A stretch of DNA of 64,000 nucleotides from Maribacter polysiphoniae. GTDB lineage: Bacteria; Bacteroidota; Bacteroidia; Flavobacteriales; Flavobacteriaceae. The stretch lies in contig NZ_QGGQ01000001.1 of assembly GCF_003148665.1 (NCBI RefSeq), forward strand, positions 451,762-515,761, in the 5' to 3' direction. Below the pieces are notes generated by a model. The model had not been told where the DNA came from, did not search any database, and worked only from the letters and a program-made list of their open reading frames with translations. Below, piece by piece: positions 5,746 through 9,359 of the stretch (position 1 is the first letter of the stretch; each line of letters starts with the position of its first letter). The position numbers were made by a program, and so were the translations under genes.

Positions 5746-6354
5746 ATGGCTTTTGAATTACCTAAATTACCTTATGCATACGATGCATTGGAACCACATA
5801 TTGATGCCAGGACAATGGAAATACACCATACAAAACATCACAATGGGTATACCAATAATCTAAATGCGGCGATCGCCGGAACCGATTTGGATAAGAAATC
5901 AATTGAAGACATTTTGACCAACTTGGATATGGGTAACGGTGCAGTACGTAACAACGGAGGTGGTTTTTATAACCATTCCTTGTTTTGGGAAGTAATGTCA
6001 CCAAATGGAGGTGGGGAACCTTCAGGTGAATTGGCCAGCGCCATTAATGATGCCTTTGGCTCTTTCGAAGCTTTCAAGGATAAATTCAGCAAAGCAGCAG
6101 GTACCCGCTTTGGTTCTGGATGGGCTTGGCTATGTGTACATAAAGGTGGAAAATTGGAGGTGTGTTCAACACCTAATCAAGACAATCCACTTATGCCAAA
6201 TACAGGATGCGAAGGTTTTCCTATTCTTGGTTTGGATGTTTGGGAGCATGCCTATTATTTAAATTATCAAAATAGAAGGCCTGATTATATAAACGCTTTT
6301 TTCAATGTAATCAATTGGGAAAAGGTTGCAGCGCTTTATGCTACCAATAAATAA
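5746..6354 (+). CDS. sodA: Superoxide dismutase, Mn/Fe family
   Basis: The protein is 202 aa, the normal length, and converts superoxide to hydrogen peroxide and oxygen in the cytoplasm. The four metal ligands are all visible: His27 (MEIHHTKHH), His77 (FYNHSLFW), Asp164 and His168 (LDVWEHAYY). The outer-sphere Gln lies in the late position (STPNQDNPL, Gln145) as in Mn-type enzymes, but metal choice cannot be settled from sequence. There is no signal peptide. It is monocistronic, with a -7 promoter box 34 bp upstream and a strong terminator 14 bp downstream, and it is convergent with the small-RNA array beyond. Confidence 0.95.
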
Positions 6355-6367
6355 AAGACAATCTTGC

Positions 6368-6406
6368 AAAAAAGCCCTTTAAGTCCCTGACTTAAAGGGC
6401 TTTTTT
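6368..6406 (+). terminator. Rho-independent terminator of sodA
   Basis: A 12-13 bp stem (AAAGCCCTTTAAG pairing with CTTAAAGGGCTTT, 6-nt loop) is followed by a T run. It sits 14 bp after the sodA stop. The A-rich 5' flank means it could also stop minus-strand transcripts coming from the small-RNA array. Confidence 0.9.
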
Positions 6407-6419
6407 ATTGTCCAAAAAA

Positions 6420-6492
6420 TAGAAAAGGGCGGAGAAGCCTCCACCCTTTTCGTCCCAAATCTTACCATAAACTTAACCTACTTATGCTATGG
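6420..6492 (-). ncRNA. Small RNA candidate, array copy 1
   Basis: This is the most diverged array member. On the minus strand the 40-nt core starts at CCATAG (6492) and runs to 6453, with one or two changes from the other copies. A terminator hairpin with an AAAAGGG stem and GGAG/CTCC upper stem follows (6450-6423). The -7 box is TATTTTAG (6505-6498), 5 nt from the core as in every copy. I infer a transcript of about 70-75 nt starting near 6492. Its hairpin resembles that of copy 5 rather than copies 2-4. It has no complete ORF. I do not recognise a known RNA family. Confidence 0.6.
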
Positions 6493-6626
6493 CGAGACTA
6501 AAATACTGGGTTTGTGGGAAATAAAAAAGGAATTTTAGCAAATTTTAGGCTTCTTTCATTCTCCCTATGTGGGTTTTAATTTGTTTAAAGTAAGGTTAAA
6601 CCTGTTAATTGTTGGGCTTATGCAAA

Positions 6627-6698
6627 TAAAAAAGGTAGGGCAACGCCCTACCTTTTTTCCCCAAATCTTACCATGAACTTAACCTACTTATGCTATGG
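6627..6698 (-). ncRNA. Small RNA candidate, array copy 2
   Basis: The 40-nt core occupies 6698-6659 on the minus strand. A terminator hairpin with 8-bp GGTAGGGC/GCCCTACC stem (extended by A-T pairs) and 3-nt loop at 6658-6631 follows, then T-rich sequence. The -7 box TATGTTTG (6711-6704) ends 5 nt before the core. The predicted RNA is about 70 nt. The promoter region upstream of the box is shared with copies 3 and 4 for about 60 bp. Confidence 0.68.
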
Positions 6699-6822
6699 TC
6701 CCACAAACATAGGGTATAACGTAAGGGTATGGAAAGGTATTAGGTAAACTTCCTGTTATTGGGTTGAAATGCTTTGGGTTGTGTTTAATGAAAATAGGTT
6801 TGGAAGAAAGCGGTTGGTGTAA

Positions 6823-6895
6823 AAATAAAAAGGTAGGGCAACGCCCTACCTTTTTCCCCAAATCTTACCATGAACTTAACCTACTTATGCTATGG
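6823..6895 (-). ncRNA. Small RNA candidate, array copy 3
   Basis: The core lies at 6895-6856 and the terminator hairpin at 6855-6827 (same stem as copy 2). The -7 box TATGTTTG is at 6908-6901, with a TTCG resembling the upstream TTTG element exactly 19 bp further on (6931-6928). The core start is 197 bp from copy 2 and 200 bp from copy 4, and sequence identity with copy 4 continues about 60 bp upstream of the box. This is probably a recent tandem duplicate. Confidence 0.7.
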
Positions 6896-7022
6896 TCCTA
6901 CAAACATAGGGTATAACGTAAGGGTATCGAAAGGTATTAGACAAACTTCCTGATATTGGGTTGAAATGCTATTTTGGGATGTTTTATGGATGATCTGGTT
7001 TAGAGGGAGTGGAATAGTGTAA

Positions 7023-7095
7023 AAATAAAAAGGTAGGACATTGTCCTACCTTTTTCCCCAAATCTTACCATGAACTTAACCTACTTATGCTATGG
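7023..7095 (-). ncRNA. Small RNA candidate, array copy 4
   Basis: The core at 7095-7056 is identical to copies 2 and 3. The terminator hairpin (7055-7027) has the stem GGTAGGAC/GTCCTACC. Relative to copy 3 a G-C pair has become A-T on both sides, so pairing is preserved. The -7 box TATGTTTG is at 7108-7101. The predicted RNA is about 70 nt. Confidence 0.7.
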
Positions 7096-7280
7096 TCCTA
7101 CAAACATAGGGTATAACGTAAGGGTATCGAAAGGTATTAGACAAACTTCCTGATACTTGGTTAAAGTGTTCGATTAGATGGAAAAACTACTTGGCGTATG
7201 CAACCAACTTTAAGGATGCTCAGTGCTAGCGATATTTTTTTTGGATATAAATCGAAGGAAAGGAAGTTGGATTTAGTGCA

Positions 7281-7353
7281 ATAAAAAAGGTGGAGAAGTC
7301 TCCACCTTTTTTGCCCCAAATCTTACCATGAACTTAACCTACTTATGCTATGG
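7281..7353 (-). ncRNA. Small RNA candidate, array copy 5
   Basis: The core at 7353-7314 is identical to copies 2-4, but the flanks differ. The hairpin (7312-7283) has a GGTGGAGA/TCTCCACC stem. The -7 box is TACTTTAG (7366-7359), again 5 nt from the core. It is the copy nearest purF. It shares no upstream sequence with copies 2-4, so conservation of the core here reflects selection or an older duplication. Confidence 0.65.
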
Positions 7354-7413
7354 CAGGTCTAAAGTAGGTGGGTAGGTTTCGTTCTTGACTATAAAGACGA
7401 TAAAACCCTTAAA

Positions 7414-7460: not shown

Positions 7461-9359
7461 CTAATAAGCTCTTTCGTTCTTTCCTTGGTAGAAGTTGATA
7501 AATGCCTTGTTTACAACCCTATTGCCCCCTTTTGTTGGATAGTTACCGGTAAAATACCAGTCCCCTAGGTTTTTAGGACAGGCTTCATGCAGGCTTTCTA
7601 TCGTTTGATAAATAATCTTGACCTCGGCCTTAATATCGATAGGGCTCAAGAGCTCTCCTATTTTATCGGATATTTGTTGGGCGGTAAAAGGTGCGTAGAA
7701 ATCCTTGACATAATTAACGATGTCATCATCCTTTACATTGAGCTGGGCCAGGCATTTATTGTAAATGGCTGTTACCTGATCCATGGTATTGTGGTCTTCA
7801 TGAAGGGCGAGTGCAGCCTTAAAGGCAACGAAATCCTCCAATTTGGCCATGTCAATACCATAACAATCCGGATATCGAATCTGTGGGGCAGAGGAAACAA
7901 CAATGATTTTTTTGGGCGATAAGCGATCTAATATCCGTAGGATACTTTTTTTAAGTGTTGTTCCCCGTACGATACTGTCGTCAATGATAACAAGGTTGTC
8001 ATTCTTTTTTACGGAACCGTAAGAGATGTCATAAACATGGGCGACTAAATCATCCCTGCTACTGTCCTGGGTTATAAAGGTTCGTAGCTTGGCATCCTTT
8101 ATGGCTACTTTTTCAATCCTAGGTCTTACCGCCAGAATTTCATGAAGCTCCTCGCTTGTGATTTTAGTACCGATGGATAATATTTGTTCCTCCTTCTTTT
8201 TGTTCAAATAATTCTGCGCCTCCTTGACCATGCCAAAGAAGGATGTCTCTGCGGTATTCGGTATATAGGAAAAAACGGTGTTTTTTATATCGTGGTTGAT
8301 GGCCTTCAGGATCTGGGGAAAAAGAAGTTTCCCAAGTTTCTTGCGTTCTTGGTAGATTTCCTTGTCACTACCCCTTGAAAAATAGATGCGTTCAAAGGAA
8401 CATGCTTTTCTTTCCTTTGGTTTCAATATCTCATTGATTGAAGAACTGCCATCCTTTTTGATGATCATGGCATGGCCCGGGTCAAGTTCCTTGACCTTTT
8501 CAAAAGGAACATTGAATACGGTTTGTATGGCCGGTCTTTCTGAAGCGACCACGACTACCTCGTCATCTTTGTAGTAATAGGCGGGTCTGATACCGGAAGG
8601 GTCCCTTAGCACAAAAGCGTCCCCGTGGCCCAACATACCGGCCATCGTATAACCACCATCCCAGTTCTTTGCGGCCCTTCGTAGTATTTTATTGAGCTTT
8701 AATCTTTTTGCGATTAAAGGTGAGGCTTCCATTTTATTGAAGCCTTCTTTCTTTATTTGTTTATAGAGTTTGGCTACGGCATCATCCAAAAAATGACCTA
8801 TTTTCTCCATCACCGTTACGGTGTCGGCCATTTCCTTTGGGTGTTGTCCGAGTTGTACAAGATTGTCGAAAAGCTCATCCACATTGGTCATATTGAAATT
8901 ACCGGCAACGATAAGGTTACGGTGCATCCAATTGTTCTGTCTAAGAAAGGGGTGTACGTTTTCAATACTATTCTTGCCAAAAGTACCATAACGTACATGT
9001 CCTAATAGTACTTCACCAATATAGGGTATGTTTTTTTTCTGTGCCGCAACATTCTCTTGGTATTCAGGGTGTTCCTTAAAAGCAGAATTGATACGGTCAT
9101 TGATTTGATCAAAAATATCCTGAATGGGCTGTTGTTGTATCGAGCGTACCCTGCTCATATAGCGCTCACCGGGATCCATATCCAATTTGATACTCGCAAA
9201 ACCAGCACCATCCTGACCGCGGTTGTGCTGTTTCTCCATCATAAGGTACATCTTGTTTACCCCGTAGAAAGCCGTACCGTATTTTTCTTTATAATAGGAT
9301 AAAGGTTTTAGTAAACGGATTACCGAAATACCACATTCATGCTTAATTGCGTCGCTCAT
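7461..9359 (-). CDS. Amidophosphoribosyltransferase-type enzyme (PurF family, long form)
   Basis: The protein is 632 aa, against about 470-510 for typical PurF. The family makes phosphoribosylamine from PRPP and glutamine, the first committed purine step. Glutaminase-domain signatures are the nucleophile Cys9 after a short propeptide (MSDAIKHEC), RGQDGAG (47-53), GHVRYGT (120-126) and GNFNMTN (153-159). The PRPP-binding motif VIIDDSIVRGTT is at 457-468. The extra length comes from insertions in the N-terminal domain and a C-terminal extension of about 120 residues. Long forms like this occur in Bacteroidetes, and whether a second standard PurF exists elsewhere cannot be seen here. purN lies 1.7 kb upstream on the same strand. 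A terminator stands only 15 bp before this ATG. Confidence 0.85.
   Translation of the reverse strand: MSDAIKHECGISVIRLLKPLSYYKEKYGTAFYGVNKMYLMMEKQHNRGQDGAGFASIKLDMDPGERYMSRVRSIQQQPIQDIFDQINDRINSAFKEHPEYQENVAAQKKNIPYIGEVLLGHVRYGTFGKNSIENVHPFLRQNNWMHRNLIVAGNFNMTNVDELFDNLVQLGQHPKEMADTVTVMEKIGHFLDDAVAKLYKQIKKEGFNKMEASPLIAKRLKLNKILRRAAKNWDGGYTMAGMLGHGDAFVLRDPSGIRPAYYYKDDEVVVVASERPAIQTVFNVPFEKVKELDPGHAMIIKKDGSSSINEILKPKERKACSFERIYFSRGSDKEIYQERKKLGKLLFPQILKAINHDIKNTVFSYIPNTAETSFFGMVKEAQNYLNKKKEEQILSIGTKITSEELHEILAVRPRIEKVAIKDAKLRTFITQDSSRDDLVAHVYDISYGSVKKNDNLVIIDDSIVRGTTLKKSILRILDRLSPKKIIVVSSAPQIRYPDCYGIDMAKLEDFVAFKAALALHEDHNTMDQVTAIYNKCLAQLNVKDDDIVNYVKDFYAPFTAQQISDKIGELLSPIDIKAEVKIIYQTIESLHEACPKNLGDWYFTGNYPTKGGNRVVNKAFINFYQGKNERAY

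Follow-up and report, generated by a model that had tools for sequence, protein, structure and literature searches.

A tandem array of putative small RNA genes between sodA and purF in Flavobacteriaceae, with candidate complementary partner RNAs

The array between sodA and purF

The window analysed here, the whole 64,000-nucleotide stretch of Maribacter polysiphoniae DNA, carries in the intergenic stretch between sodA and a purF-like gene five direct-repeat units on the minus strand, spanning positions 6422-7366 (Table 1). In each unit a -7 box of the TANNTTTG type is separated by 5 nt from a core of 40 nt, which begins with CCATAG in all five cases and is followed by a terminator. The top NCBIfam match of the purF-like gene is TIGR01134 purF (E 4e-38), a match below that model's cut-off.

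Alignment of the window's five cores reveals differences at only two places, C/T at one position and G/A at the last, the variant core of unit 5 carrying TTATGG and GGGA. Units 2-4 are alike over approximately 172 nt; units 1 and 5 possess upstream regions of their own, which recur in relatives as those of the first and last unit. When the core was searched with up to three mismatches against the complete genome of 5,129,962 bases, five copies were found, all in the array, and the reversed pattern yielded none, demonstrating that the array is not due to chance. Together with the alignment, this genome-wide search bears out the original observation of five units, each with box, gap, core and terminator.

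Table 1. Positions of the array units, their flanking features and the partner array of the same genome. Positions are those of the window unless a contig is named.
Feature	Position	Strand	-7 box	Core	Predicted 5' end	Terminator	Remarks
sodA, Fe/Mn superoxide dismutase gene	5746-6354	+					flank, convergent with array
Terminator-like hairpin behind sodA	6368-6406	+					inverted repeat
Array unit 5 (nearest sodA)	6422-6505	-	TATTTTAG 6505-6498	6492-6453	~6493	6451-6422	
Array unit 4	6628-6711	-	TATGTTTG 6711-6704	6698-6659	~6699	6658-6628	
Array unit 3	6826-6908	-	TATGTTTG 6908-6901	6895-6856	~6896	6855-6827	
Array unit 2	7026-7108	-	TATGTTTG 7108-7101	7095-7056	~7096	7055-7027	
Array unit 1 (nearest purF)	7283-7366	-	TACTTTAG 7366-7359	7353-7314	~7354	hairpin 7312-7283	
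Near-perfect palindrome TTATCGATGAAAT...ATTTCATCGATAA	7414-7454						on the purF side of unit 1; candidate site for a regulator
purF-like gene	7461-9359	-					flank, co-directional with array
Anti-B, own genome	G000:C1:141836-141981	opposite core					found by promoter block, beside run of N

In each window unit a G+C-rich hairpin starts 0-3 nt past the core. A terminator scanner listed three of these five hairpins, and all five fold as fully paired 13-14-bp hairpins with T-rich tails, that of unit 5 including a G-U pair. Folded as whole RNAs, the units have z -3.4 to -4.6. In the predicted fold a 5' hairpin is followed by an exposed AAGAUUUGGGG linker and then by the terminator; CCAUA/UAUGG closes the 5' hairpin around a GUAGG loop. 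A diverse selection of 40 units retains all 11 pairs of this hairpin without exception, and two of the pairs vary on one side only with pairing kept (A-U/G-U and G-U/A-U). No two-sided change occurs among these 40 units, and the hairpin is therefore conserved rather than proved by covariation. The RNAalifold consensus lacks the terminator because the terminator stems do not align; the hairpin is accordingly shown unit by unit.

Spread and conservation in relatives

Flavobacteriaceae are major marine degraders of algal polysaccharides, and to our knowledge post-transcriptional control in this family has hardly been described. An 89-nt unit used as query at E 0.01 matches 30 of 60 genomes (own included), namely 28 of the 37 from Flavobacteriaceae, usually at several places, and two of the 23 from other families, in the terminator part only. 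Tandem homologues, named beforehand as support for the small RNA reading, are present in other Flavobacteriaceae. A unit of the second sub-family recovers 121 of 149 Flavobacteriaceae genomes at E 1e-5 and 128 at E 0.1; these genomes are an even draw across the family, and the matching loci were read in part. Among the matches listed, the exact class-1 core appears in Maribacter, Zobellia, Arenibacter, Cellulophaga, Robiginitalea, Flagellimonas, Eudoraea and Kordia.

Units are present in 148 of 150 loci examined, some of which are the same place fetched twice. Wherever both flanks lie within 2.5 kb, the order and strands of sodA, array and purF are identical (98/98 loci), and among 65 loci with more than 1.5 kb on each side, 50 retain both flanks, 11 one flank and 4 neither.

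Scanning of 269 sequences gave 392 distinct units from 150 loci, 363 of them class 1. Since this set was gathered by a pattern that required the core, the constancy of the core rests on the search with the 89-nt query and on a local-alignment scan of 102 loci. In that scan the core of terminator-bearing units varies at five places only: T/G at position 3, G/A at position 5, C/T at position 23, a one-base indel near position 30, and the last base. The indel separates class-1 cores, which read GGTAAGATTT, from class-2 cores, which read GGTAGATTT. Across the 392 units the -7 box shows T in 350, A in 360, T in 392, T in 369 and G in 336 at its fixed positions, an invariant C precedes CATA, and the upstream sequence is otherwise variable with the box spacing fixed. 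A hairpin follows 0-3 nt past the core in 391 of the 392, and its second arm together with the 8 nt beyond contains at least five T; its sequence varies among units and the hairpin persists.

On this anatomy and its conserved layout, self-contained small RNA genes of about 70 nt, as originally proposed, are the best reading of the units. Within Maribacter three upstream types recur by array position, which fits the further suggestion of independently regulated siblings. One Maribacter genome (G003) also has an isolated sense unit (L047, G003:C47:80782-80829) away from the main array contigs; its core is perfect and its terminator differs.

No Rfam family reaches its cut-off for the array RNA when the whole window is searched at gathering score. 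The Flavo-1 motif, which had been named as a candidate, is absent from the Rfam matches both for the window at gathering score and for the array region at E 10. STnc40 (RF02057; at most 33.0 against 45 bits) and sraA (RF02029; at most 30.1 against 56 bits) were rejected, the terminator supplying much of either match, as were BTnc005 and miRNA models, whose matches lie below cut-off and derive mainly from the terminator or from relaxed filters. The Bacteroides RNAs BTnc005 and BTnc231 match far below cut-off.

We know of none among the LhrC, OmrA/B, Qrr and Cia-dependent siblings that faces a dedicated multi-site decoy array. These families differ from the array in sequence and phylum; as with them, the array comprises several related, near-identical copies, each with its own promoter and terminator as judged by sequence features. 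They are named in the discussion of PMC11697453. Within Flavobacteriaceae, Rfp18 of Flavobacterium psychrophilum is likewise a conserved sRNA, but differs in being strongly structured and in pairing through its third stem-loop, according to the available part of PMC9723704. The same source mentions RNAs Rfp1-89, and the array family is possibly one of these. A search of the literature, confined largely to openly available main texts, returned no paper that we recognised as dealing with the array family.

Candidate partners with complementarity to the core

The gap between hflX and a DUF3078 gene holds a second tandem array, here termed anti-B, which is complementary to the core and present in the own genome (Table 1). 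One to four anti-B repeats occupy the hflX-DUF3078 intergenic stretch in 11 of 17 loci fetched via the neighbouring protein, and in one genome (G009) the repeats are located elsewhere. On the strand opposite the core, anti-B possesses a conserved upstream region that includes TTCATCG..., TTCACCACA and TTCACAACATA, a predicted promoter with a near-consensus -7 box about 5 nt ahead of CCCCAAATC, and a predicted terminator in the form of a nearly symmetrical 3' hairpin with a T run.

The anti-B set comprises 21 units from 12 genomes and was gathered by the promoter block; gene neighbourhood, not complementarity, led to the locus in eight of these genomes. In 19 of 19 units tested, pairing of the core with the 32 nt at the 5' end outscored the whole set of 200 shuffles (z -3.4 to -11.8). 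When the stretch was lengthened to the first 118 nt, 13 of the 19 still beat all 200 shuffles, and for the other six 1, 4, 20, 1, 1 and 7 shuffles are as good. The 5' ends of the anti-B units are thus complementary to the sRNA beyond chance.

Pairing profiles of 17 units place a 5' site over GGUUAAGUUCAUGG and GAUUUGGGG, with the centre open, and a second site, further in, over UAAGUAGGU and GGUAAGAUUUGG. Jointly the two sites span everything between UAAGUAGG and the 3' end of the core, whose first nine bases are little covered, and most of the duplexes have a mismatched centre. In distant genera the complementary blocks are still recognisable and the remainder has changed; in G002 and G003, both carriers of a further unit described below (anti-A), the 5' end of anti-B has decayed. 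Because RNAalifold returned no consensus pair for anti-B, the model built from it describes sequence only. At 28 bits or more this model matches 15 of 149 genomes, 11 outside the training set and 4 within it, and at E 0.01 it matches 43 of 149, also hitting the reverse strand of the sense arrays. Strong anti-B matches are found in a minority of genera, and strict filters lose weak ones.

Anti-A is a compact unit in five Maribacter genomes (G002, G003, G007, G008 and G011), laid out as a -7-like box, CCCAAATCTTACC-AAACTAAACC... and a predicted terminator. In G002, G003 and G008, three of the 20 mnmA loci listed, its place is immediately before mnmA or in the gap that separates yidC from mnmA. 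In G007 it precedes mnmA by about 450 bases, and in G011 it is on a contig other than that of mnmA. For all five units none of 200 shuffles pairs with the core as well, four of the five loci having been picked up by core similarity.

Some genomes with class-2 cores carry a different candidate partner. In 22 such genomes the complement pattern of the class-2 core, allowing three mismatches, finds 12 sites beyond exact matches, which were taken as sense units, and the reversed control finds 3. Ten of the 12 sites represent one orthologous locus behind scoB, present in 10 of the 22 genomes; of the other two, one falls inside a coding frame. The scoB-linked leader shows a -7-like box followed by CCCAAAT in 6 of 10 cases and holds the core complement up to CCAAATCTACCATAAACTTAACC in full. 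Behind it comes a 40-42-codon ORF in which AAT CTA CCN, among the first codons, repeats the core complement. At all 10 loci the picked site outdoes each of the 200 shuffles, as selection by pattern dictates; the stretch downstream of it does so in 9 of 10 and the upstream stretch in 2 of 10.

Across 1813 codon comparisons the ORF differs 668, 438 and 863 times at codon positions 1, 2 and 3, respectively, a pattern that by these counts is as for coding sequence. AAT is fixed at its synonymous position in 10 of 10 loci and CTA in 9 of 10. Searches of three of the ~40-residue proteins against Pfam and NCBIfam placed no family over cut-off, and at E 1 returned only Tsi6 (E 0.16, below cut-off). 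All ten proteins (L329-L333, L336-L339 and L046) end in a C-terminal T(K/R)K(V/I/L)(F/L)ML motif.

The two core classes and their partners differ by the same base: the class-2 core lacks one base, and the scoB-linked complement lacks that base as well. In 18 class-1 genomes, the class-1 complement finds eight sites other than sense units, six of them anti-B (reversed control 0), and the class-2 complement finds three, with 2-3 mismatches (reversed control 2). In the 22 class-2 genomes no site fits class 1 better, and two of the class-2 sites reappear with three mismatches (reversed control 1). The ten class-2 sites being one orthologous locus, they amount to about one paired change, kept over several genera. 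We regard this matched one-base change in sRNA and partner as supportive, not as proof, of an interaction.

A start-codon pattern, CCAAATCTTACCATGAAC, identified no target site in the own genome, where its 11 matches (reversed control 6) comprise the five array units, three copies of a mobile-element repeat and three sites inside coding frames. In G082 a core-complement-like site with three mismatches (L334, G082:C19:476806) lies directly before the ATG of a lipoprotein-like ORF, possibly by chance.

A proposed titration circuit and its alternatives

From gene anatomy, conservation, the predicted fold, complementarity beyond shuffles and the matching one-base difference, all of which were computed directly, we infer transcription, pairing in the cell, repression and titration. 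The array probably encodes a multicopy base-pairing sRNA of a Flavobacteriaceae-wide family that is accompanied by dedicated decoy RNAs, a reading we hold with moderate confidence. Given matches in 121 of 149 genomes, a core with five variable places and no Rfam cut-off reached, this RNA is likely to be a hub. We also put forward, tentatively and at slightly less than even chances, a fuller circuit of array against array, in which the sRNA array would be opposed by a decoy array carrying two bulged copies of the target site per RNA, with decoys swapped between lineages for one another or for a multi-site leader of the conserved ~40-residue protein, and with a base co-changed with the sRNA core.

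In the reading of a multicopy sRNA with decoys, each of the five copies would make an RNA of about 70 nt comprising the 5' hairpin, the AAGAUUUGGGG linker as main seed, and the terminator. Partner RNAs, carrying CCCCAAAUC...GAACUUAACC, would pair with the linker first and then open the hairpin along its 3' arm, an order proposed because the 5' CCCCAAAUC of anti-B complements the free stretch and its second block enters the 3' arm of the hairpin. The non-coding partners, anti-B with two sites per RNA and, in some relatives, the compact anti-A, would titrate the sRNA, and the open centre of the anti-B duplexes might suit a decoy spared from cutting. In the class-2 sister genera the partner would be a small mRNA downstream of scoB with at least two sites around the start of its ~40-codon ORF, where pairing at the start codon would block translation. 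Array copy number may set the dose that the decoys titrate.

SroC and AgvB are sponges against GcvB, and in common with these the partners described here are separate RNAs complementary to an sRNA that could titrate it. The putative decoy here differs in being itself a tandem array with two sites per RNA facing a tandem sRNA array, with different lineages using different partners. RNA sponges have also been reported for RoxS in Bacillus (PMC8216469, available part) and in Caulobacter (PMC12559287, available part), and the same likeness and differences apply to them.

Pairing being symmetrical, the direction of control might instead be reversed, the anti-B, anti-A and scoB-linked RNAs acting as regulators or messages and the sodA-purF array as a multicopy decoy titrating anti-B. 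The conserved, elaborate upstream region of anti-B and its up to four copies would suit such a role. We consider this reversal rather unlikely, since the array is more widely spread than the strong partner matches (121/149 at E 1e-5 vs 15/149, counts obtained by different methods), its core changes less, as expected of a hub, it remains constant while the partners differ by lineage, and the scoB-linked sites surround a start codon, the usual place for sRNA targeting. Also to be weighed is a plain multicopy sRNA that, in the manner of FopS, represses SusC-type transporter mRNAs at their start regions, with the antisense partners being secondary. FopS (GibS; RF04319) is by sequence the closest likeness within the own phylum, though far below cut-off (19.9 bits against unit 1, cut-off 56), and its seed, UUCAUGGUA..AGAUUU, aligns with the core at a score equalled in 30 of 5000 shuffles. 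It resembles the array RNA in its phylum, multicopy paralogues, seed region plus terminator, and Bacteroidota-type promoter. The available part of PMC11697453 reports 14 FopS paralogues in B. thetaiotaomicron, which pair at susC starts and bind RbpB, an RRM protein. Predicted pairing of the core with 30 susC start regions gives z = -2.06 (7/200 shuffles as good) vs z = -0.26 (77/200) for 38 other start regions; this signal is weak and comes from one set, and SusC targets as for FopS were set aside. Much of the shared stretch sits in a predicted hairpin arm: the array core folds into a 5' hairpin followed by the GAUUUGGGG linker, whereas the 5' end of FopS is unpaired. The array copies, unlike those of FopS, stand in tandem at sodA-purF and have complementary partner RNAs, of which the available part of PMC11697453 mentions none for FopS. 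An RRM_1 protein was found in none of 23 Flavobacteriaceae genomes (own included) and in 3 of 37 genomes overall, all of other families. Because score, unpaired 5' end and RRM protein all fail, we do not file the array RNA as FopS, although the family may work like it; repression of SusC-type mRNAs as its main role appears improbable.

Two further readings would dispense with a regulatory RNA. The units could constitute a non-transcribed repeat or bidirectional terminators between two genes, as the nearly symmetrical hairpins could stop transcription from either side; yet the repeat is not dispersed in the own genome, a near-invariant core adjoins the hairpin, the TANNTTTG box keeps its fixed spacing in the 392 units, and the stand-alone unit L047 joins an identical core to another terminator, so that we deem this very unlikely. 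That the units are leader-peptide genes is scarcely credible. An ATG does lie inside the core, and a plus-strand ORF beginning MNLTYLCYG can be read in units 1-4, but unit 5 has ATA at its start, as have 102 of the 392 units of relatives. On the minus strand, no conserved ORF and no kept frame were found in the five units and their relatives, because of the class-1/class-2 indel after the core ATG (GGTAAGATTT / GGTAGATTT) and the 0-3-nt linker.

Under the preferred reading of an sRNA array with dedicated decoys, the partner RNAs would provide ready, testable ligands and, if confirmed, a case in which multicopy sRNA genes are faced by an array of multi-site decoys. The scoB-linked ~40-codon ORF offers both a candidate target and a small protein for study.

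For the palindrome between unit 1 and purF, a half-site (TTCATCGAT or ATCGATGAA) is present in the array-purF gap at 83 of 128 loci, whereas the background rate is 0.107 per kb, and two-mismatch matches to the palindrome site number 25 in the window vs 11.2 expected. Many anti-B units have a similar TTCATCGA in their upstream sequence, and it recurs at one of the scoB-linked loci (L339). Through such palindrome-like sites, a regulator shared by the array, anti-B and the scoB-linked locus is possible.

The mobile-element repeat, CCCCAAATCTTACC... with a long inverted repeat, occurs at G000:C1:11060 (L263/L036), G000:C1:426945 (L264) and G000:C27:1395 (L268), and in G005 (L038), and has 14-24 nt in common with the complement of the sRNA core. 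These loci were rejected as anti-RNAs. The inverted repeat of L264 is CTATGGAATTTTTG...CAAAAATTCCATAG; this copy directly follows a tyrosine integrase, with a relaxase gene close by, and the repeat looks like an att site or oriT. Elsewhere in the window, positions 187-657 form a repetitive stretch with overlapping repetitive plus-strand ORFs, perhaps a repeat-rich gene on the other strand.
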